Assembly: GCA_029945375.1 (NCBI GenBank)
Contig: CM057059.1
Location: forward strand, 3,224,001-3,288,000
Direction: 5' to 3'
Length of the DNA: 64,000 bases
Source: Agaricus subrufescens
Lineage: Eukaryota > Basidiomycota > Agaricomycetes > Agaricales > Agaricaceae
Made by a program: the position numbers and the translations under genes. Positions 28,437 through 42,023 of the stretch are shown here, one piece after another. The number at the start of each line of letters is the position of its first letter. Within the stretch, counting starts at the first letter, position 1. A model generated the notes under the pieces. That model saw only the letters and a list, made by a program, of their open reading frames with translations. It did no database searches and was not told where the DNA came from.

Positions 28437-29742
28437 ATGGAAATGACTCCAGCCCGATCTGATTCTATAGGCACTAGGAGAGCAGTCGGAAACTTAGGTG
28501 AGTGTTTCTCTTGCTTTCCCTTGACCCAACTGCTACTTTTCTCCTTAGATATCGAGGAACAGATAGAAAGGGATAGGATAACGGCTAATAATAAAATTAA
28601 GATACTGTTACTAGGGGCTAACAAGTCGCATACAGTAGGTATTGGTTTGCTAATTTCCTCGTTATTTTTCTGAGGGAATCATATTCAAATTAGGCTAGAT
28701 TCTTCCAGGTGCTACAGCTCAATCAAAAAGGTGGTTACAACGACACGGAACGGAAGGGATTCAAGAATGAAGTATTGTTTTCTGCGATCCGAGCCCTAAA
28801 GTGAGTCAAGGAGTGATTAATTTCTCATAGTTCATGAATGACTGAATGTACTATATCCCCGATGGTTGAATTTTTTTCAGGACTTTACTGAGCCTCATTC
28901 ATCCTGATATGAAATTCGCACCTTCTAACGAAACTCATCGAGCGACTATCCTTGGCATGCCTGATGACCTCGAGAACGAGGTAATCTCTTCAGAAATAAT
29001 CGACGCTATGGGTAGCCTGCATCAAGATCCTGGTATTCAGAAAGTGCTCAAGGACGAACGATTGATTAACGTGATAGGAGATTCATCTATCTACTGTCTC
29101 CAACATATTGACCGCATAATTCATGAAGAGTATATCCCTTTCGACGAAGATATCATCAATCGATATATCAAACCCACCGCGATCGCAGAAATAAATTACA
29201 AGGTTGGCGAGCTCACATATCAGATCATACATATCGGCAAGCAAGATGGGGCATGGAGGAAATGGATACATTGTTTCGAAGAAGTCACAACTATCGCATT
29301 CGTTGTTCGTCTTGATGATTATGATCAACTCATCATGACAGACGGAGAGCAAAGTGTGGTAAGCCTGATCTAGTTAATTTCTTCTGACTGCCCGTCATGT
29401 CATTATTTACCCCATCCTTTCGTTATAGAACTACATACATACAGCACTGGATATATTTGATTCGATATGTAATTCCAGGTGGGTCAAAAAAACTGCTATT
29501 GTACGTTGGCATCCATAATTTCTTTGCTTGGTTTTTTTTTTTTTGAACTTTAGTTTTTTTTCAAAAACATACTAGATACTCTTCCTCGACGATAAAGACC
29601 TGGCTGAAAAACTCTCTAAACATCCACTCCAAGATTTTTTTCCTGATTTCACCGGTGGCACTGATCACGATGCAGCTTGCGATTACCTATTGCATCGTTT
29701 CGTTAGTCTGAACAAACATGCTACAAGACAGGTATATGCGTG
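28437..29742 (+). pseudogene. G-alpha-like gene 1, 5' part, split by a transposon
   Basis: The gene starts at ATG 28437; its 3' end lies beyond the insertion, at 42018-42195. Spliced peptides follow the G-alpha fold in order: KIKILLLGANKSHT (P-loop position), LQLNQKGGYNDTERKGF, the helical-domain part IQKVLKDERLINVIGDSS, YIKPTAIAEINY (switch I), HIGKQDGAWRKWIHCFE (switch II), IFDSICNSRWVKKTAI, ILFLDDKDL (NKxD position) and TRQVYAC. Against GNAI1 numbering the P-loop is two residues short, Arg178 is Tyr, Thr181 is Pro, Asp200 is His and Gly203 is Lys, while Gln204 remains. There is no N-terminal MG for myristoylation. Before the insertion the frame looks intact, so the disruption is recent. 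Confidence 0.8.
29737..29742. repeat. Target site duplication, left copy
   Basis: TGCGTG immediately precedes the left terminal inverted repeat and is repeated immediately after the right one at 42018-42023. Identity extends one or two bases if the element boundary is moved, so a length of 6-9 bp is possible. Confidence 0.8.
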
Positions 29743-29772
29743 TATGGCACACATAGTGTACAAAAAATCCGG
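29743..29772 (+). repeat. Left terminal inverted repeat
   Basis: Reads TATGGCACACATAGTGT, one variable base (A here), then CAAAAAATCCGG. The reverse complement of 41988-42017 is identical except for T at the variable base. Homology stops sharply after CCGG. Confidence 0.9.
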
Positions 29773-29785
29773 CCGGAAACTTTTA

Positions 29786-29876
29786 ACTTTTTTTTTAAAA
29801 ATTGAACTTCCATTTGACTTTTTTTTTAAAAATTGAACTTTCATTTGACTTTTTTTTTTAAAATCAACTTCCAAAA
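29786..29876. repeat. Left subterminal tandem repeats
   Basis: Three copies of about 31 bp, each a T-run, AAAAATTGAACTT, then TCCATTTGAC or a variant. The T-runs read as poly-Lys on the minus strand, so short frames here are not genes. Subterminal repeats often bind transposase. Confidence 0.65.
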
Positions 29877-30122
29877 AAGCCATGTTTGAAAATTAGGAGG
29901 TTCTGGAACTTAAAAAACAGGTTTGTCAAAGTTGTCAAACTTCAAAAGTCGGAAACGAAAGTTCAAATTCCATAATTATTAGACATGTACAAAAAATAAG
30001 AAAAATTTTCCTGGCAGCGACCGGATCAGCCATGGCCATCAATATGGCACGGCAAGAGACCGGTCACAGATCAAAGTGACAAACTCAATCATTTATTGTT
30101 GATAGGAGCTAAATATAGTAGT

Positions 30123-31718
30123 TTAGGAAAAATGAGGTCGTAAAATGTCTATTGCCTCCATCAATAGATAAATACCACTGTTCTCATCATCCATGTGAAT
30201 AGGAAAACCTTTGAGGATATCACGGGCCTTGGCCATGTCCTCTGATTCCTGTGAATCCTGTGCCATAGTGTCCTCATCAAGAGGATGCTCATCCTGCAAA
30301 TTTTGTGTTGCAGCCTCTTCATCAAAGCCGTACAAGGGATCAACCTCTGCCACATCATCACCTGGATCCTCCACCCAGTAGCCCATCATCTTAGCCTGTT
30401 CCTTACTAAGTTCATAGATTGCGTGGGGACTCTTATAGTGCTCCGTACGTAGCTTGTGATTATTCCAAGATTGGACCATTGCATCTAGAGTAGCTTGAAT
30501 GCGCGGCTTGAATATTATAATGATGGCAAGCCGATGGACTGGATCTTCCATGTCCAACTCCCCGACGTGCTCAAGGTGTAAGAAAACCTCACGCCAGTAG
30601 TCCAAAGCACCTAGACGGACATCATGCCAGAGCCGTTCAATGCGAACATTATGAACTGATCTGGCAGTACAATCAGTTCTATTATGAAGGTCATAGATGA
30701 GTGATCACATACCTTCCTCGGAGAAAGGCCTTATGGTCTTCTCCCCATCTCCTAAGCATGTCTTTTTCTACCTCATTATTTTCCGTTCCATAATCTCCTC
30801 GCACTCTACTTGGCCACCCATACTGCTTCACACCGTCATTGAATATGGTTTGAACTGTTGCGGCCTTCTTGTTGTCTCGTAATTGTAGGTAGATGATCAT
30901 CCGTGAGTGTCCATCAATACAACCATGGATATAGAATCCCCATGGCCGCAGTTTTTCATTGCCGTCCATGTGCCAGAGGGCATTACTGCCCCTGACCTTA
31001 TAGACCCGACGACGAATTCCATGGTGCCAGCTACAATTTGGTGAGTGACAGGCAAATGAGACTATTTAGTGACATACCGGAAAAGGGTACCTAAAGGATC
31101 AACCCGTCGTAAACTATCACTGACACGAGCCAGAGGCAGCTTGATACCCTTGGCTTCAAGGGCCCCTCGCATCATGTTTGCACCGTAGTTTGGGTGCTGT
31201 AACAATAATCCAGCTACGATTTCATCCAGTTCAGCATCCATCAAATCAGAGAAGGCGGGACGAGCTGAGGAAAGACCAGCCTTCTCCAGGTGATTGTACA
31301 ATGTCCCGCGGGTTACGCCTAAAACCTCCGCAATTTTCTGCCACGTATTTCCAAGATTGTGCAGCTCAATGGCGCGATTGACATCAACGACCGCGGTAGG
31401 GCGTCCTCGATTGCCTTGAGACTCTGTACGGGCCTTGAATCTAGTTTGTCCCCCCGATTCTTTCTCATAATCCTGTAGAGGGAGCAAAACAGTGTCCAGA
31501 TGTTCCATCGACGCATTGACTTCATCAGGCTCGAGGTCGTCCAACTGTAAGTCACGTAGCAGTCTTTTGGCGAGTTCTAGCTTTTTGATTGATCTTCGGA
31601 CTGCAAACAAGTCCACATTGGGAAGGTTGTCGATAAGGTGTTGTGCATCACGATAGATGGTCTCCATGTCATGTAAAAGTGCTGTCACTCTGTCCCTCTG
31701 GCCACCACTGGAACTCAT
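30123..31718 (-). CDS. Integrase-core (DDE) transposase
   Basis: Three exons (31078-31718, 30713-31030, 30123-30660) with 47 and 52 nt introns sum to 498 residues. The N-terminal third is helical (ALLHDMETIYRDAQHLIDNL); an HTH-like part follows (NTWQKIAEVLGVTRGTLYNH) and a linker (HPNYGANMMRGALEAKGIKL). The catalytic core shows Asp 1 in WHMDGNEKLRPWGFYIHG, Asp 2 in SRVRGDYGTENNEVEK and Glu in VHNVRIERLWHDVR, so the DDE triad is complete. The tail is acidic and ends IDILRPHFS. The start at 31718 (MSSSGGQRDRV) is preferred over an upstream TTG-like frame at 31757. It is the presumed mobility enzyme of the element, and its intact frame suggests it may be active. Confidence 0.85.
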
Positions 31719-31800
31719 AGCGAACAGGAGAGTGTAGAAGTATTTAATATTTGTCATTCATAATTTATTTACCATGTGACGTTGAGTTCGACGCCCCTGT

Positions 31801-34800
31801 CTACACCCCTGCTGCCTCGGGAAGAGCATTCACGTGCTTAGATATCTCCGTACAGACCTTAATCCAAGGGTCATTCTCTGATTTCCAATTATCCGGCATA
31901 GGTTTTGGCACATTCTTGTCAGGGTGGTAGACCTATGCTGAGCATAAACAAAAATATATCGCGTTTGAGAAAAGTCCTTACAGCAATAAGCTCCTTCTTT
32001 TTCTTGTTTCTACTTGCTTTACTTGCACGTACACACCTGTTGCGCGATTCTTCAATCGGGTGAGGGAAGCAAGTCATTACCGTTTCCAACAATGCTTCAA
32101 CCGTATAGTCTCTATCCAACTGTGCGTTACTCAAGTGCTCATCTACATTGGCATGAGTTATCGGCTGGCGAATGATTGGATTCAGAGACTTGTGCACCCG
32201 AAGCTTGGGTTTCGGATAGGATTTCTTTTGGGATTTCGCTTTCCTCTCTTCCTCGGCCCTGCGTTTCTCCTCTTCGTCTTCCCTCTTTTTCTTGGAGACC
32301 TAAGCTCATCATCAGCCACTAGTATACGTGTCATATTCCCAAGTGCTCACCTCAGCAAGTCCAGGTATTTTAGTACTCAGAACGTAGCAAAAATCTTTAA
32401 TTGTCGCCACTCTAGTCTTATACGCCTCCCTTTCTTTGTTACCTTCATCAACCAAACTTTGCAGCTTCTCCAACAAACCGTCTATTCCATTCTCACCAGC
32501 CAGTACGTCCTTTGTTATGTCCTTGCTTTTAGGGTCGTAACCAAAGTCAAGTTGCAGTGACGTGAGTATCGATGCTTTGCTGATATACTCAATGTATTGG
32601 ACGTCGACTGTACCAATGGTATGATACTCAAATCGGGCGACCGGGAACCAGTCACGATGACTGTGCCATGCTTCACGGAGATGTCGTATTCCCCAGACAT
32701 CCCATTCCCACCGAGGAACTTCCAGCCGAAAAGCTTTCACTGGGGGAATCAAGTGCAGAGAGAGTTGGTCAATATGCCACAAGCACCGACAGATAGTGAG
32801 ATAGTTTTCCGTGTGATGCTTAGCTTGCGCCTCCAATATCTTTGCCGTTTTGACAATGGTTTCCCAGATAGGGGTCAGGCCACCAGGACCAAGGCGAAAA
32901 CCCCGGCGTAAGTTATCCATAAAATTGTCGTTATGACCCTGCAGACTAGCTGTCCCCATAACCCGCATAAAGTGCAGGTCATCTTGTAATTTCATGAGGT
33001 CAAGACGGAGCTGCTTGACGACGCTTGACGGTACTGAGGTGAAGAGGTCCGTTGGCGACGGGAACTGGGAGAGGGACTCCTCAATGTCTTTGATGGTTGC
33101 GGCAGGATTGGCGTACTGCCCTATAGCTACCCAGCGGTGCTTTAACCCCACTATCAGTATTGTGCTGGCGCTTGTAGGCAAGAACACTTACCCAATTAGA
33201 GTCTTCGTCGACCTCAATGTTTCTTGTATATTTGCCCAAGTCAACAACGTGGTGGACAAGATGGTCGAGGTTGGTTGAAACCTCAGCTTCTTCTATTATT
33301 GTCTTAGTATCACGAAGGTGTATATTTTAAAGTTGAACACACCTGCATCCAAATCAGTTTCATCTAAAAGACCGGTTCGGTGAAAAAAAAAACACACAGA
33401 CAGGGGTGGCTAACACTTACCATCTGTCTCTACCATTGGTACAGGGGTAGGTGACTTGTGAATCGAGGGGTCAGGGCTTAGGCGAACCCAATCCGTGAAA
33501 TTATAAGTTGGGCTGGCCTTTGTTGAAAAACCTGGGTTTGGGTGGGGCCAGTCGATATCAGGGAAATCGAAATCATCTGCCGACCATCAGAAAACAGGGA
33601 GGTAGAAGAGGTGTAGGCTCATACCTGCATCACTAGTCTTGCCATCCCCTTCCGCATCAGCACCTCCGTCATCCGTCGTATCTTCTTCTCGTATATCCTC
33701 CAATCCCTGCAATCTGGCAATGAAAACTGTAGGTGTTGTTTTGTTGTACCGTCTTGAATAGCTGAAATCCCATCAGAAGCTTCCCCATTGCATCAACGAC
33801 GACACTCACTCTTCATACATTGAGAAGATTATAGAATCCTTTTCGCTGTTGTACACACGAACCAAGCGTGACGCCTTCCCCCGACCCTGGGACTTTCCAC
33901 TCAGTAACGAGAAGTGCTCCAGATCGCTGAGGTCTAGAGTTGAGCTCCCTTCATCGCGTTTCTTGGAGATGCGGTCGCGTAGATCTTCCACAATCATCCG
34001 TCTCATCTCCTCCACCGTATACTTCATGGCCAAAGTAACATAGCCCACAAGGCCAGCTAATGTAAGCTTTGTCTTGACTCTGACACGATAATGAGTTACA
34101 GGCAAATCAAAAAGTGGTCGGACTTACTCTTCATCACTAGGTACATTCCTAGTTCCCTTGTCCACCGCCGAAGTTTCTGGTATCATTACTATGCGGAAGA
34201 CAAGTGATTTCTCCACCACCGTCTCTGCCAGTTTTGCTTTCTTAGATGGAGGTACATCTATCTCGTCATCCTTAGACTTCTTGTTATTCTTGGTCCTTGT
34301 TTGCCCTCGCATTGACTTTCTCGTGTTTCGGGTCAGAAGTCGTGTCATGGACATTTTCTCTGCCTTGCCTTCGTAGATCTTTTATTGTCTTTTCAACAAC
34401 ATGAAGGTGTATAGCACAATAATCGACTCACTTTGGCGCCGGGATCCACACGGAGGTGAGAGCGCAACCCATCTTGCTGGCGCCTCTTCACATTTTGGCG
34501 AACATCGGCAAACAGGTTGGTAGCCGAGCCCCCTGCGCCCTCATCATCAGATGATACACGTACAGAGGTCGTGCTGGGGGTAGGATAACTCTGTCGAGGG
34601 CAAGACTGAGGGACAATTAGCAAAGGCGCGTACAACAACTTTTAGCCTTACCTTTGATGCCGTGGGTTTGTTAGACGAGGGGGGAAAGCTCTGACGCCGC
34701 TGTGAAGGACAATATTAATGTAAACTTATTATTGTCATCTCTCGTGTACTTACAGATCCCGTATCTGGGGCCGTCTCTGTATTTTCATCATCCCATGCAT

Positions 34801-34954
34801 AGTGACGGTCTGCGGTGCATCCACATACACACCACACCCCTTCAGGTGTGGCATCCTTAGGCAAGGGAGTCTCTGCCGTGAAAATGAGGCATTTACCCTG
34901 CAACCGACAGCGCATGTTTGTGCATCTCTGAAGACGCGCGAACAGGTCAGTCAT
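31801..34954 (-). CDS. Element-borne Cys-rich protein with J-like C-terminus
   Basis: I do not recognise a named family. A chain of about ten exons keeps frame from ATG 34954 to TAG 31801. The N-terminus has CTNMRCRLQGKC followed by GVWCVCGCTADRHY, a compact Cys/His cluster that probably binds zinc. Next are a basic nuclear-localisation-like stretch (TRTKNNKKSKDDEIDVPPSK), a helical domain (VEEMRRMIVEDLRDRISKKR), a middle domain (LKHRWVAIGQYANPA, FRLGPGGLTPIWETIVKTAK), a charged coiled part (KKREDEEEKRRAEEERKAKS) and a final exon with YHPDKN, the HPD signature of J-domains, ending VCTEISKHVNALPEAAGV. The stop lies 82 bp before the transposase start. A role in transposition is inferred only from position. 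Confidence 0.65.
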
Positions 34955-35214
34955 TGGTATCTGTCACACCGTAAGTCAATAGTTGCGTCGATAGGCCAAG
35001 GGAGGATGACACGTACGAAGGAGACACTCTCTAGGTATGCTCTCAACCAGGCCACGTCACCACCGACCAGCTTTTGTCATCTCCACTTGACAACGGCCGC
35101 CCGTTTACAGGGGTTGCCCCTGTCGATGTCTTTTGACAACGCCAAGCGATACGCTGTACCTCTATCCATGCAGGCATCACTCTGCTATCCCACATTGGCC
35201 GTCACCAGTGCATT

Positions 35215-36899
35215 TCAGAATACGACATCTTGTGCTACAGAACTATACATAGCTAGCCCTTTTTGCCACCGACCACCTCCAACTATAGGGGTTCCCATAC
35301 CATCTTTGCCTGTCATCTCCTCCTGTCGTATTTGAAATATGGCCGGGTCATCTGACTTCAATGACGTGAGTGTTCGGAAGTCATTCTCCACAAATCGGAA
35401 GATGCTCCCCGAGCTGTAAAACGTGACTGATGCCCTCTTGTCCTCCAGGCCTATTGGCACGTTGCTGTGAGTGATGACAGCTGACGGAATCAAAGCGGTA
35501 GATCCGGCAGGAAATTCTACAACCAAACGAGGCTCATGTAGCACGAGATGCCCACCCTTGGTAGCATCAAACTCTCCTAACGCTACTACTGCGCACCAGC
35601 CAAAAGAAAGGTTGCGATGGTCACAATGAGGGACTGTAACCACACTATGTCCGTAGTTCTGGGACATAGAACTGAAAACTGAGTGTCGAAACGGCTTTTC
35701 CAACATACTATATTTCGGATGTTGGGCAAGCTTCTCCATTGTATCTTGATAGTACGCATGCAGTTTTGGAGCCCATTTTTTGAAAGATGCTGGGTAGACC
35801 AGAAGATCATTAACAACTCAAGGACAACATACGTTTTTATAAACACTTACAGTCACAGAATCCTATTATTCGGTTCATCTCCTGTGATTCGCGGATAACT
35901 CGGACGCCCACAGAAATATTGTTCGGAACATGTAGATTGATAGCTTTGATTTGTCCTTGATCCACTGTTATGCCAATGTCCGCTGAAGGATAAACACCTC
36001 TTCGGTGTGTAAGCTGTTTAGGAAGGAAGTGTGTCTGGTTGTCCATCTCCTCAAGAGACAGATACAGACAGTGACAACTGTCCAGGTAGTCAGAGACTGT
36101 AGGTCTTCCAGCGAAAACGGCGAATATTGTTCCACAACTGTCCACGATTGGAAGGGGCTCCACACCTGTGACACGGTTAGTTTACATTAACTGTGAATGG
36201 TATATAGTGTCATACATACCATTCCATGTTTGTATTGTATAACCGGCATCCCGGAAGCCTTGTAAGTTGGTATGAGGGAACGCTCCTTCGCCTGTCAAAC
36301 CACAATAACCCGTTGACTCGGCGTGGAGCCCTTGAGTGGTGTATGATAAAGGAGATTGAACAGGTGCCTGACTGCGCGCGAGAGTAGCTCGGCGTAGTTC
36401 TTGAATTTGAGCCTCTTTCTTCTTCTTCCGTCTCAGATGAGATCCATTCTTTTTCGGCGGCTTCAAGGTGAGGGGCATGTGAAGTATTCGAGGAGGGGAC
36501 ATTGCCTGTGGAACCTTGCGTGGACGGCTTTGCTGTGGAGTTACGGTAGCCGCCCCTTTGCGGCTATGCGATTGACGTTGATCAGGACCACTATGTGCCA
36601 GAGTTTCCCGGGACAGAGTGAGGATATTATCCTCTTTCTGCGGTGGAGGTTGAAACGACTGCATGTTGGTAGGTGGTGCTCGGTCGTCATTGAAGGATTC
36701 ATACATTGCCTGCTCCTCATGCTCAACCGCCCTTTGAACCAGGAGCTCTAGTTGGTGTTGAGGGAAGGCGGGATAGTCAGAGCGACCAGCATATTCACGG
36801 CCATGTCGGGTCTGCAATATTATCGAGTCATTACCAAGAAAAATCAAACGAGCACCCAGTAACACATACCGTGCTCTGTACATATCCTGTCACAGGCAT
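35215..36899 (-). CDS. TET/JBP-like 2OG-Fe(II) dioxygenase
   Basis: Four exons (36870-36899, 36220-36811, 35851-36165, 35215-35789) sum to 503 residues from MPVTGYVQST. A Pro/Gln/Lys-rich N-terminal half (PPQKEDNILTLSRETLAH, HLRRKKKKEAQ) precedes the catalytic part: VDSCGTIFAVFAGRPTVSDY, FKKWAPKLHAYYQDTMEKLA, then the jelly-roll core. Iron ligands are HxD in VPHCDHRNLSFGWCAVVALG and the distal His in IPSAVITHSNVPIG; RASVTFYSSGSIF supplies the Arg that binds 2-oxoglutarate. All are present, so activity is plausible. TET/JBP enzymes oxidise 5-methylcytosine or thymine in DNA; the substrate here is not shown. Agaricomycete members of this family accompany KDZ transposons, which supports a link to the mobility or masking of this element. 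Confidence 0.8.
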
Positions 36900-37217
36900 G
36901 CGGAAGAACTCAAGAAGGTGAGCGAGGCAGTACACGCGTGCCAAGGCTGACTGGGTCCGGGGAGCAGTCTTTGGACAGCCGGTGCGCGTAGTGCCCTTCA
37001 ACCCCACCAAGCTCAGTCGCGTGATGTTGTGTTGAACACAGCCTGTACGTCAATGGACGCGCACGGACTTGTTACGACGGAGTCTGTGGTCGAACCGGTG
37101 ACGTTGTGATCCGAGAAGGGGATTGTATTGAGCCATGCGATCGTGATCGAAACGTGGCTTTGTACAATAGAGATGTCGCGTATAATTAGACAGCGTTGTA
37201 GACAGGGGTAAAATTGA

Positions 37218-37336
37218 GACTCTGGGGAATCCCAGCCATCGAAAAAAGAAGAATATGACTCTGGGGAAACCCAGCTGTCGCGAACATTGACATCCTACAC
37301 AAGGTTAGCGTCGCGGATGACAGTGGGGAAGCCCAG
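37218..37336. repeat. Three iterated TGGGGAANCCCAG motifs
   Basis: At 37218-37236, 37257-37275 and 37319-37336 the sequence GA(C)TCTGGGGAATCCCAGC recurs with small changes (GACTCTGGGGAAACCCAGC, GACAGTGGGGAAGCCCAG). Each is an imperfect palindrome around GGGGAANCCC. They sit between the divergent TET/JBP-like gene and the plus-strand orphan, as binding sites for one regulator might. Confidence 0.55.
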
Positions 37337-37727
37337 TTGTCACCACCGGGAAATGCGCGTAAACAGAGCCCTGTTCATATAATCAGAAGTCGTTCAACGG
37401 TTGTCGCATAAGATCACTCACCGAAAAGCCGCCGGCGTACATGGGGTGATGAAGAGAAAGAGGAAAGAGTGCGCGTAGGGTGCCGTGAGAACTTTGCTGT
37501 CGCCACATGACAGTAAAGTTAATCAATGTTGAACGGCCCCGATGAAGTAGTGGGGCTTCTATTAATAACTCGCACCTCTTTTTTTCGAGCCACCTCTGGC
37601 AAGAGACTCGCATCGACCACTTAGCGCGAGCGCTGTTTTTCAAGCCGTGATTGTCAGTAAGTCTATTGCACCAAACCATTCCGCTCTCTGACTGTGATTC
37701 GCGTTATAGTCTCTAGACCGTTCTCAT

Positions 37728-37915
37728 TCATTGCGACAACAGGGCTTCTCCTGAGTCTTCAACATAAGCGTTGCTTTCACATTCCGTTTATCACAAACAA
37801 TCTGCGACAGCAGGGCCTCTCCTGAGTCGTTTATCACAAACAATCTGCGACCACAGGGCTTCTCCTGAGTCTTCAACATTATCGTTTCTTTTACAATTCC
37901 TTTTATCACCGACAA
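37728..37915. repeat. Imperfect direct repeats upstream of the plus-strand orphan
   Basis: Three imperfect copies of a 40-60 bp unit with CAACAGGGCTTCTCCTGAGT and TTTATCACAAACAATCTGCG. They leave the frame open upstream of the first ATG but do not look coding. Confidence 0.55.
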
Positions 37916-37944
37916 TCTCCTTGTCCACGTATTTACTTGAACGC

Positions 37945-40645
37945 ATGTCATCTTCAAAGTCGTGGCCCTCGTCCTCTTTGCAGTGGTCCATGATGGAACC
38001 AGAAGGTCTGGCCACGGTTGTCAACGGCGACCTCTACTTTTCACCGAACAGCCGGAGGAGGATATCCGGTATACCTGCATTGCCTCAGCCTTGGAAGTTT
38101 GTAGAGAGAGTTTCGGCTGCCGCTGATTTTCAGGAGGCCCGGTGGTGGACTACAGGAACCGAGTGGCTTGGATTTATACCTAGACAACCCGTTCCCTATG
38201 CGGGTGTTTGGTTCGGGCCCTTGAACATCATACCCAATCGATTACTGTGCGAGAATCAAAAGGAGTACGGCTTACCGGTGTTTTATAGTGAAAAATGGCT
38301 CGAGATCGACTCCATGCTGTGGGAAACTTGCGAGATTCTTCGTGAGTCGTACCATTTAGGATACGCCCTTCCATTTCCTCCCCGACGGTGGGGTTATCAC
38401 AAAATGTACTCGTCACGAAGCGAGGCAATGCGACACATCACCGAAGGTCGCGACTGGTTTGCCATGTGGCTGGGGCTATTGTATTGGTCCACGAGAAAGA
38501 TACCAAACGGCCCGGACTTTGCTGAAGGATTGTCACCGCCCGATTGGTTCAAAACCGTTGTATTCAAGAGGTCACAGCATCTGAATGGAACCTATGTAGA
38601 TGCCATCCGTACGTCACAACTTCTGCAGAATTGGTGGCAAATCGACCGTGTGGGCTTGTTTCTGCACCACCCCACCGATGCCCCTACTCAGCCTTCGGCA
38701 CAGTGGTTCGTCGATCAGAACGTGCCTGTATGGTATCGCTGGGGTGACAGAGAACGCCGGAGCTCTTCCACACTCCGTGACTTCAAGCTTCTCCGGCCAA
38801 CTCCCGAACAACTGCAGACAGCAACGACTTGGATATCTGCCTCCCCCGGCCCTGCCAACTCCTCTTATTTTGTGGACCACAGGGAAGAGGAGGCCCCAGA
38901 CTACGACTTCACTGCCTTCTCCCCTCAACCGCCTTGCGTTGATGAAACCGGTCCTCCTCATCACGCCACTCTAACATTGGCTGGATCGCAGCCACTAGCA
39001 TCTGTTGTTAATACTGCTTCAGAGCCGTCTCCGAACAATCCACGCACATTCATCAACAACAAAGGGTTCCCCGAAACGAGCTATGGGTCTGGACGGTCAG
39101 TCTGGGAGCCTTTCTTTGAAAAGCAAGAGGAAAGGCACCGCCGCAAACTTGAGAAAGAAACGGCAAAACAAAAACAAGCTCGTGAATCACGTATGCGACA
39201 GCCTCCCAGGACTTCGTGCCCAGTTTTCGTTTGGGATTGGAACGATGACGAACCTCCCAAATTTGAAAGGTCCCGTGTCAGAAATGACGAACGTGAAGAG
39301 ACCCTCAACAGCTTTAGCGACAAGCAATTGAGGTATAACGCGTTTGACAATGAGTGGGATTGTTGTCGTGAATGGGGAGAAGATCTTGAAGAGGAAGAGG
39401 AACCCGTGCCGCCTCAGCTACAGCAACTGAAATCAGCAGACGAGAGATTGACAGACCACCTGGCGACAGAAGTCTGTCGTCTGCTATATGAGTATTATGG
39501 CTGGGTTGCGCCCTTACCCTTGCCATTCCCCGACAATACCTCCATTCCGGAAAATGACCACAAATCGTTGATAGCGGTTCTCGGCCTACAAAGCGTGTCA
39601 ACTGGGAGTCCGTTATTCGATACGCCCGTTGCCAAAGCGGCTATGCCGTTCATCAAGGTTCTGGCTTCGAAAGAGGTGGAGCGTCCTTTACCATTGCAAT
39701 GGGATTTGGCCGAGCAAAGCCGACTCTCTATCAAAAATTGCAGGTCACTAAAGTACATTCGAACGCTGACACAAGAGAAAGCTACGTGGTACATGTTTGA
39801 CTTTGGATCGTTGAGGACAGTACCATGGAACTTGGCTGTTCCAACGGCTGCTGCGGCGCTGCTAGTGTGTCGCCTGGCTGACAAACTCGATGAGCCCGCA
39901 AAGAATCGACTCAATGAGACGGCGGTCACACAGGAGCTGGTCATGGAGGGTGTTAAATTCCACACCGTGGTTCGTCGAGATACACTGGGCCCCGTTGACC
40001 CTGAGCCTCCCACTTCTACGTACCTGCCAATGCGACTGTCAGGCCATCAATTCAACATTCAGGATCACGATTTCTACAAATATCAATGCAATGAAATCAT
40101 GTCGTCACCTAGAGCTCGAGCGGCTTTGATGCGGGGGGGCTTCATGAGACGCATTGCCCTTCGTTACATGAAAGTATCCGAATCCCTACGAGGACCCTGT
40201 GGGCTGTATGAAGATCCGAGTCACATGTTTATCGCTAAGGATGTCAATGGTGTAGAGTATGTCGATGATGAGTTGTCTGATGCAGAATACAATATGTTGG
40301 CGGGATTATATTACCAGTTCACAGGTACGTCCTCATAGCTTTTCTCTCTACCTCTCTTACACTTTGACAGGTGAGGCAAGCAAAGTCGCGAAGGTATGTT
40401 GGTATCCTCAAGCCTGGATCTTTGAAGGCAGTGGACTGGACGTCGGTCGTTGGACTGAGCACGCCGAGGCTTTCTGGAATAAAAGGTCAAACGCTATTCT
40501 CAACGACAATGTCAATAATAACCTGCGTGTCCCTCTCAACGTAAATGATTGGCGGTCAAAACTGAGAGGATTAGCAGACGCTAGGAGAGCATGGGCCAAA
40601 GTAGAGATCTGGTCAAAAGATTTCTTGAGCAATTGTCTTGTCTAA
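37945..40645 (+). CDS. Element-borne orphan protein of 884 residues
   Basis: Two exons (37945-40324 and 40371-40645) split by a 46 nt intron give 884 residues. The frame extends upstream only from a TTG, so ATG 37945 (MSSSKSWPSS) is the start. Features are an aromatic-rich N-terminal domain (ARWWTTGTEWLGFIPRQ, WGYHKMYSSRSEAMRHITEG, RDWFAMWLGLLYWSTRK), a Pro/Ser-rich linker, a charged coil (EERHRRKLEKETAKQKQ), an acidic patch (EDLEEEEEPVP) and a C-terminal domain with CWYPQAWIFEGSGLDVGRW. I recognise no catalytic motif. Similar long orphans of unknown function are known to me in Agaricomycetes. It is the only large plus-strand gene of the element, divergent from the other three. Confidence 0.8.
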
Positions 40646-41112
40646 GGTGTGGTGTCAGGTGTTTGTCATTTCTTTCGGGCATGTACATACATATTTTTTC
40701 CGCTGCTTGATATCTTCTTGGGTGCTAGCTTTACGTTGTAAGATCAATGTATTTGGGATGCCTGCTATCACTATCCTCCTTTGTGGTAAGTTGGACATTC
40801 CTACTTCTATGCGTGTCAACTAACGATGATTTTGACTTTGCTTTCTAGTAATAAGGTTTGTATCTACTTTCTCACTATTGCTTGCAACAATAAGACCGAG
40901 ACTGAGTAAGAGGTCGTGATATGGAGGTACTGAGTGCTGTCTACATACACTTAACTAACAAAGGTACTATGAGCGGCTGACTACACAAGACTACACAAGA
41001 CTTATGAACACGACCCCGAGGAAATAGAGTGAGCCAATATTCGATGTTATGATGCTATTAAGGCGCGTCTATGTTCAATTTCATTGTAACGTTGTTTGAT
41101 TGTTGGCCGCAG
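40646..41112. other. Intergenic in element
   Basis: No gene is supported. The end (TTGTTGGCCGCAG at 41112) looks like an intron acceptor, probably captured with the TAF6 fragment that follows. Confidence 0.45.
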
Positions 41113-41842
41113 GACACCGCAGAGTCCTTAGGAGTGAATATTTCCGACTCAGTCGCGTCTGTACTCGCCAGTGATGTCGAGTATCGCATCCATCAAGTCG
41201 TAGAGGTGAATTCCTTTCGAAAATGTCCTATCAATTGTTAACTCGAGCGTGACAAGGAAGGCCGACGAACAACACTTACATCAAGCGATATTGACCTCGC
41301 CCTACGAACTTTAGATATCGAACCCCTTTATGGCCACCTTCCATTCTCTCAGCCATTGTATCGCAAAGCTCTTCCATTCCCCCAGATAAGCCAGCCTGGT
41401 TCGAGTCAGCCTGGTACAGCTGGACCAGTGTACTTCGTAATGACTTTGAACATGTCATGAGGGAGGAAAAAGTCATGTTGCCCAAAGGTGTTAGCTGGAC
41501 AGCTCATTGGCTAGCTGTGGAAGGCGTTCAACCATTTGGCTAGCTGTGGAAGGCGTTTAACCATTGATTCCGGAGAATCCTCCGGCTGTTCCACGAGAGG
41601 AGCCGACAGCGACCGGCGAAGCTAAGGTCAATGGAGCCTCAACGTCTGTTCCGGCCGCCACAGGTGCGGCTGGTCTACTTCCAGGTGGAGGTCAGAAACA
41701 CGGAGCTTTGCCAAACGCCAGGAGTGCACAATCTGCACATTTAGTGAAACAAGTCCTCTCCCGCGAACTCCAGCTCTATTATACGCGTCTCACATCCTCC
41801 CTTTTACCCCCCTCATACACACCAACGCGAGACAATGGTTAA
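41113..41842 (+). pseudogene. Captured TAF6 fragment (TFIID subunit 6)
   Basis: The first exon reads DTAESLGVNISDSVASVL then ASDVEYRIHQVVE, the TAF6 histone-fold start. After a GTGAAT...intron comes RRTTLTSSDIDLALRTLDIE and PLYGHLPF, the end of the histone fold. A frame shift leads to REEKVMLPKGVSWTAHWLAV and EGVQP. A 29 bp tandem duplication (41507-41535 and 41536-41564) then breaks it, followed by IPENPPAVPREEPTATGEA and LSRELQLYYTRLTSSL, the conserved central part. The C-terminal HEAT domain is missing, and several stops are present. Since intron-like sequence is kept, DNA-level capture rather than reverse transcription is likely. It cannot make functional TAF6. Confidence 0.8.
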
Positions 41843-41964
41843 CGTGGTTCTGTTTTGTATGCATCTGTTTGGATTTTAATAAAAGTAAGGTGCGTACTTA
41901 TTTAGCTCCTTCCATTCCTTCAGCTCAAAGTCACTTTCCGGGAGTTCATTTTTTTGGAAACATT

Positions 41965-41984
41965 GAAAGTTCGTGAAAGTTCGT
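41965..41984. repeat. Right subterminal direct repeat
   Basis: GAAAGTTCGT is repeated exactly in tandem just inside the right terminal inverted repeat. Confidence 0.65.
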
Positions 41985-41987
41985 GTC

Positions 41988-42017
41988 CCGGATTTTTTGA
42001 ACACTATGTGTGCCATA
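41988..42017 (-). repeat. Right terminal inverted repeat
   Basis: Reverse complement reads TATGGCACACATAGTGT, T, CAAAAAATCCGG, one base different from the left end over 30 bp. Confidence 0.9.
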
Positions 42018-42023
42018 TGCGTG
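42018..42023. repeat. Target site duplication, right copy
   Basis: TGCGTG directly follows the right inverted repeat and matches 29737-29742. Confidence 0.8.

Follow-up and report, generated by a model that had tools for sequence, protein, structure and literature searches.

The window, a stretch of 64,000 nucleotides from Agaricus subrufescens (contig CM057059.1, C3:3224001-3288000 in the numbering used here), holds at positions 29743-42017 a whole DNA transposon with its ends, target site duplication (TSD) and genes. The reading favoured here, to which a probability of about 70% is given, is that the element is a complete, probably autonomous IS3EU/GingerRoot transposon with a TET/JBP-type dioxygenase as long-standing cargo, an enzyme that would oxidise 5-methylcytosine (5mC) laid down by the host. 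The IS3EU identity and the TET cargo are well supported; an anti-methylation role is suggested by the enzyme family and by the pattern of CpG loss among copies. The genome searched comprised 44.65 Mb in 44 contigs, cited as contig:position; genome-wide match counts are lower bounds, and random-placement expectations were computed on the same 44.65 Mb. The features that define the element are as follows.

29737-29742, no strand: left TSD, TGCGTG; 6 bp also at three further independent insertions
29743-29772, plus strand: left terminal inverted repeat (TIR), starting TATGG; recurs at C1, C8 and C30
30123-31718, minus strand: DDE transposase, helix-turn-helix (HTH) then rva_4 core; exons 31718-31078, 31030-30713 and 30660-30123
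35215-36811, minus strand: TET/JBP-type dioxygenase; exons 36811-36220, 36165-35851 and 35789-35215, a hand-built model without a fixed 5' start
41988-42017, minus strand: right TIR, ending CCATA
42018-42023, no strand: right TSD, TGCGTG

The preliminary description, made from the letters of the window, had proposed 30-bp TIRs with one mismatch and a 6-bp duplication, and both are borne out. The arms pair over 30 nt ungapped with a single mismatch (97% complementary), and the TSD measures 6 bp in four of four independent insertions: TGCGTG in the window, ATAATA at C1, ACTATA at C8:2708341 and C30, and CAGAAC at C8:65009. An 8-bp duplication (ATGCGTGT) is compatible with the window alone and is ruled out by the 6 bp of the remaining copies. 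The end pattern of the window, allowing up to three mismatches, was found at eight sites forming four pairs, against no site and no pair for the backward control. These pairs delimit the window element, C1:2025266-2036750, C8:2708341-2715094 and C30:32491-39246, the last two of which represent one insertion that was duplicated later, since their immediate flanks are in common and they are 99.5% alike across 7.75 kb. A second family (family B) was found by the rva_4 search at C8:65009-75196, with TIRs of 26 nt (96%) that were also detected as a self inverted repeat. The assignment to IS3EU/GingerRoot is drawn from the TATGG..CCATA ends common to the two families and the 6-bp TSD of the four independent copies. 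Degenerate ends were located at C5:3232196-3237204 and C8:2009278-2017939, in addition to a single end at C2:4012085.

The full DDE integrase-core transposase that had been described is likewise present, being complete as modelled with three exons, 498 amino acids (aa) and the triad D236-D293-E328 spaced DD(56)D(34)E. PF24764 rva_4 matches two exons (E 1.5e-33 and 1.6e-24) and HTH_7 the first exon (4.7e-5), and there is no Cys ahead of D236. In the available text of Kojima 2023 (PMC10045372), IS3EU elements end in TA..TA, lack an HHCC motif and usually have TSDs of 6 bp. As the preliminary description had also noted, no KDZ transposase is to be seen: PF18758 yielded 94 matches genome-wide (merged by hand into 65 loci), none of them within 15 kb of any of the eight rva_4 loci, and a KDZ origin of the element is thereby ruled out.

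The dioxygenase model counts 493 aa from its first modelled exon, the true start not being fixed. Its third exon carries the anticipated HxD...H and Arg ligands as H64-x-D66...H117...R128 (numbered in the 200-aa frame, R128 by hand), and in an alignment of 19 rows H64, D66, N69 and C75 are invariant and H117 nearly so. The signature is thus HxD with Asn at +5 and Cys at +11 from the first ligand His, the window reading HCD and its kin HQD or HRD; the D-N-C combination recurs in 78 of the 87 rows of an active-site survey, whose text pattern was so loose that the two rows with E may be spurious. The HxE hallmark of the PE type is not present, nor are the Gly/Ser at +5 and Asp at +11 of the AG type (Kyakuja), N and C standing there instead; CcTET and the one PF12851 copy read from this genome have G and D at these places. 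Three TET genes of the genome (C2:3846077, C7:2235142 and C14:163711) have equal PF12851 scores, and KDZ, Plavaka and rva_4 matches are absent from the surrounding 12-15 kb; the copy read among them is CcTET-like with the G/D pair.

The TET assignment rests on relatives and fold because the window's own Pfam match is weak: its exon has no match to PF12851 Tet_JBP, and PF13640 (E 0.046) lies below the cut-off. PF12851 is matched by 9 of the 19 aligned rows at E up to 1 (best 7.7e-6), and two relatives are named JBP1/TET in UniRef, one of them with PF12851. No named rust TET occurs among the 81 hits of the protein search, and sequence searches of the PDB with the exon or its alignment returned chance hits only. 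Comparison of the predicted structure gave CcTET as the best fold match, the ligands lying on a predicted TET-like double-stranded beta-helix.

Whether the TET belongs to the element can be judged from the other copies. TET sequence is held by five of six independent two-ended elements, with the frame open in two, and stands at the same place and in the same orientation in both families. The preliminary description had asked whether four genes recur between the same ends. They do in the C1 copy, albeit with the TET match gapped (35682 to 36379 in window numbers), with one stop each in the transposase and the TET, and with an 856-aa frame that contains seven TGA; they do not in the C8:2708341/C30 copy, where 33479 joins directly to 39090 through one internal deletion that took out the TET together with the first part of the 856-aa gene, nor in C8:65009, where no 856-aa match is found and that side is filled by other plus-strand frames, the two checked having no Pfam match. 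Copies with the same TIRs and no TET therefore exist, but as deletion derivatives. In C8:65009, whose TET frame is open, identity to the window is 70% and 61% for the transposase, 41% for the 291-aa protein and 75%, 63% and 41% for the TET by exon. The C8:2009278 element keeps its transposase, 291-aa gene and a TET piece, the stretch matching the C8:65009 catalytic exon being deleted, and in the C5 element the TET exon is incomplete, covering residues 9-102 of 200. It is very improbable that the window element is a chance composite, in which an unrelated TET element happens to adjoin, or to lie within, an IS3EU element and the two were mistaken for one unit. Such a composite could be argued from the segment at 41050-41823, which is foreign to the other copies, and from TETs that also adjoin Plavaka-like transposases; yet order and orientation are alike between the same ends in the window, C1 and C8:65009 (the latter without the 856-aa gene), each with its own TSD.

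The remaining features of the element comprise the two orphan genes of the preliminary description, both confirmed as frames without a Pfam match at E 0.1, a short frame and the foreign segment.

32312-33187, minus strand: 291-aa open reading frame (ORF), companion gene of the transposase; all six of its genome matches have an rva_4 match no more than 5 kb away
34715-34963, minus strand: 82-aa Cys-rich ORF without Pfam match, possibly an upstream exon of the companion gene; Cys spacing similar in the C8:65009 element, by eye
37768-40338, plus strand: open frame of 856 codons; first Met, counted by hand, at 37945
41050-41823, no strand: segment that the C1, C8 and C30 copies lack and that recurs at 88% identity at C8:2449437, away from the IS3EU elements; captured or inserted DNA

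The proposed function derives in part from the CpG content of the copies. The observed-to-expected ratio (o/e) is close to normal, at 0.83 in the window and 0.82 in C8:65009, the two copies with an open TET; it is 0.34 in C1, 0.28 in C8 and C30, and, from the fetched parts, 0.40-0.42 in C8:2009278, 0.40 in C5 and 0.38 in C2, so that five independent copies with a broken, truncated, missing or undetected TET are all CpG-depleted (0.28-0.42). With the window copy as reference, C-to-T or G-to-A changes in the C8 copy affect 93/274 CpG against 21/1404 other positions in the left block (reverse direction 4/96) and 66/170 against 13/592 in the 856-aa block (reverse 2/43). Three blocks of the C1 copy gave 59/164, 55/166 and 107/318 at CpG against 50/871, 37/693 and 39/1093 elsewhere (reverse 6/56, 10/62 and 4/104), and the same lean is seen in family B when C8:65009 is compared with the others (CpG 107/382, 56/202 and 43/136; reverse 26/194, 16/104 and 10/56). 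Selection on protein is not the cause, because non-coding positions behave like coding ones, and no strong preference was seen for the base preceding CG in the changed positions; the change may have come about by ordinary 5mC deamination or by a process resembling repeat-induced point mutation. At C8:2009278 the decay follows the element, because the left flank has an o/e of 1.03 against 0.40 for the element.

By this pattern, methylation-type damage hits the elements other than the two with an open TET, and the TET may be what protects those two. Several observations qualify this. Age and location confound the comparison between TET state and CpG content, the surroundings of C1, of C30 and to the left of C8 being CpG-poor too, and the three AG-type TET loci named above have an o/e of 0.49-0.50, which speaks against a general rule. 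Transposon CpG erosion is patchy in this genome, 30 KDZ regions (L037-L066) ranging in o/e from 0.05 to 1.03. It is conceivable, though rather unlikely, that the TET is neutral cargo, captured once and not yet decayed, and that the intact copies are merely young or better placed. Several copies persist with the TET lost or truncated, other transposons of the genome are CpG-depleted too, and the slot to the right of the TET is variable (one family has the 856-aa gene there and the second has other frames), all of which would fit such an account. It sits poorly with a TET frame open in both families despite a 30-39% transposase difference. Moreover, the window and C8 copies have existed equally long since their ancestor and differ by few transversions (12/3689, left block), yet the CpG loss is nearly all on the C8 lineage.

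The substrate may also be questioned, in that the enzyme could target another base or modification (6-methyladenine, thymine or a hypermodified cytosine) and aid expression of the element without removal of 5mC. This is judged unlikely: the Asn at +5 is the 5mC-contacting residue of mammalian TET2, and the CpG-specific change marks 5mC as the local threat. On the other side, the window TET is without the G331/D337 pair of CcTET, and other base activities of transposon TETs are left open in the available text of Kojima 2025 (PMC12730594), which also calls the anti-methylation function of such enzymes not experimentally validated.

Under the favoured reading of a TET directed at host 5mC, the transposase would cut at the TATGG..CCATA ends and insert with a 6-bp stagger, and the TET would oxidise the 5mC placed on the element by the host. 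Oxidation would keep the element transcribed and clear of methylation-driven C-to-T decay, and copies without TET, or landed beyond its reach, would become methylated and their CpGs would then mutate away.

The TET lineage is not confined to IS3EU elements. The TET loci number 31 (30 TET matches merged by hand to 28, plus three PF12851). At 11 of them a PF18759 match is found within 12 kb, where 1.16 would be expected; the 135 Plavaka matches were merged by hand into 71 loci. Ten of the 11 are 1.8-2.6 kb from a Plavaka-type transposase on the same strand (C9:300283, C6:89449, C3:3772064, C5:2506037, C9:474254 and five more), and the eleventh is the IS3EU locus on C5. Only one of the 31 is within 15 kb of a KDZ match (1.32 expected). 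The C3, C5 and C9 Plavaka-linked copies have equal TET match scores. Five Plavaka-linked TETs (one each on C3, C5 and C6, two on C9) have 69-72% identity with the window TET; for five others the figure is 51-54%. In a tree of 25 rows (19 of the 81 hits included; two rows very long-branched, P0021 45% filled), the TETs of the window, C1, family B, three Plavaka-linked loci (C9:300283, C6:89449, C9:474254) and A. bisporus P0021 form one group at 94/94, short of the star given by the tool, while neither an IS3EU-TET clade (69/72) nor a Plavaka-TET clade (75/31) is supported. A transfer of TET between the IS3EU and Plavaka-like superfamilies, in either direction, would be the natural reading of these comparisons. 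Movement of TET and the 856-aa gene as one block is not supported, the 856-aa relatives at the five closest Plavaka loci being only 37-41% identical. More tentatively, and with the odds against it, the TET may act mostly in cis, guarding the copy that encodes it against CpG-directed mutation, such that upon loss of the TET about a third of CpG C/G positions pass to T/A before other change accumulates. It may also move between the IS3EU and Plavaka-like superfamilies as an anti-silencing module, and the available text of PMC12730594 describes no module of this type for Agaricomycetes.

Outside IS3EU, the 856-aa gene has its nearest relatives (77%) at C3:3618309 and C5:1809179, and around these two loci there is no match to TET, Plavaka or rva_4 within 12-15 kb. 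Its 78 genome matches were merged by hand into 50 loci. Most of these have neither a TET nor an rva_4 match close by, and some form pairs with equal scores; it is possibly a mobile gene family of its own. Those of its 20 protein hits that carry an organism name belong to agarics: Agaricus, Macrolepiota, Leucoagaricus and Leucocoprinus, followed by Gymnopilus and Panaeolus. Its AlphaFold model is weak (predicted TM-score 0.42) and has no Foldseek match at E <=0.001. Stops in the genome matches, introns counted in, are 49 TGA, 16 TAA and 5 TAG, an excess that is only suggestive of CGA to TGA change. Repeats of 43 and 58 bp occupy 37732-37903, upstream of its first Met, and 31-bp tandem repeats adjoin the left TIR (29782-29874). 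The element apparently splits a G-protein alpha gene, with PF00503 matches directly to the left at 28870-29836 (E 5.2e-32; a second of 2.6e-8, below the cut-off) and, to the right of 42023, a frame resembling the G-alpha C-terminus as judged by eye.

The suggestion that a second class of transposon had adopted a DNA-oxidising enzyme stands as far as the non-KDZ carrier is concerned, although the kind is not new. The available text of Kojima 2025 (PMC12730594, December 2025) counts 11 TET+ transposon lineages, including IS3EU of Pucciniales and of Tuber indicum; it describes TET+ IS3EU by 6-bp TSDs, TIRs of more than 30 bp, TAYGG..CCRTA ends and a TET between the transposase and a divergent alpha-kinase. 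It places Agaricomycete TETs in Kyakuja, Zisupton, EnSpm, Plavaka and Helitron2, not in IS3EU, and states that transfer of AG-type TET between superfamilies was not seen. The Pucciniales elements resemble the present one in TSD, ends and a TET lying between the transposase and a divergent gene; they differ in a PU-type TET, an alpha-kinase and TIRs longer than the 30 and 26 nt seen here, where the divergent slot holds the 856-aa family or other frames. No Pfam match for an alpha-kinase exists in that slot, the single PF02816 match of the genome (C5:3006466) lying away from these elements. IS3EU-1_TuIn of Tuber indicum is likewise an IS3EU with TET, but its TET is placed by the same source with the PE type (HxE), whereas here it is HxD. 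Kyakuja and Zisupton, with their AG-type TET, and CcTET have in common with the window an Agaricomycete transposon-borne TET, Kyakuja and Zisupton belonging to another transposase superfamily. The TET+ Plavaka and EnSpm of Agaricus bisporus (Plavaka also in Gymnopus) are, like the window element, non-KDZ TET+ transposons of Agaricales; they are reported there as PE type, whereas three Plavaka-linked TETs read here are HxD and kin of the window TET. Styx of Zymoseptoria is also a fungal IS3EU-derived element with extra genes, but its four genes are others, with no TET mentioned in the available text of its description (PMC10853768). No further paper on an IS3EU TET in Agaricales was found in the literature searched, which does not prove absence from print. 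The present element differs from the published TET+ IS3EU in its Agaricales host, its TET type, the lack of an alpha-kinase and the kinship of its TET with Plavaka-linked TETs of the genome.

The element extends the range of TET+ IS3EU to a mushroom-type genome, in which one TET lineage is common to two transposon superfamilies. Its open-TET and TET-lost copies provide a natural comparison for whether the TET of a transposon protects its carrier from being methylated and from the mutations that this entails.
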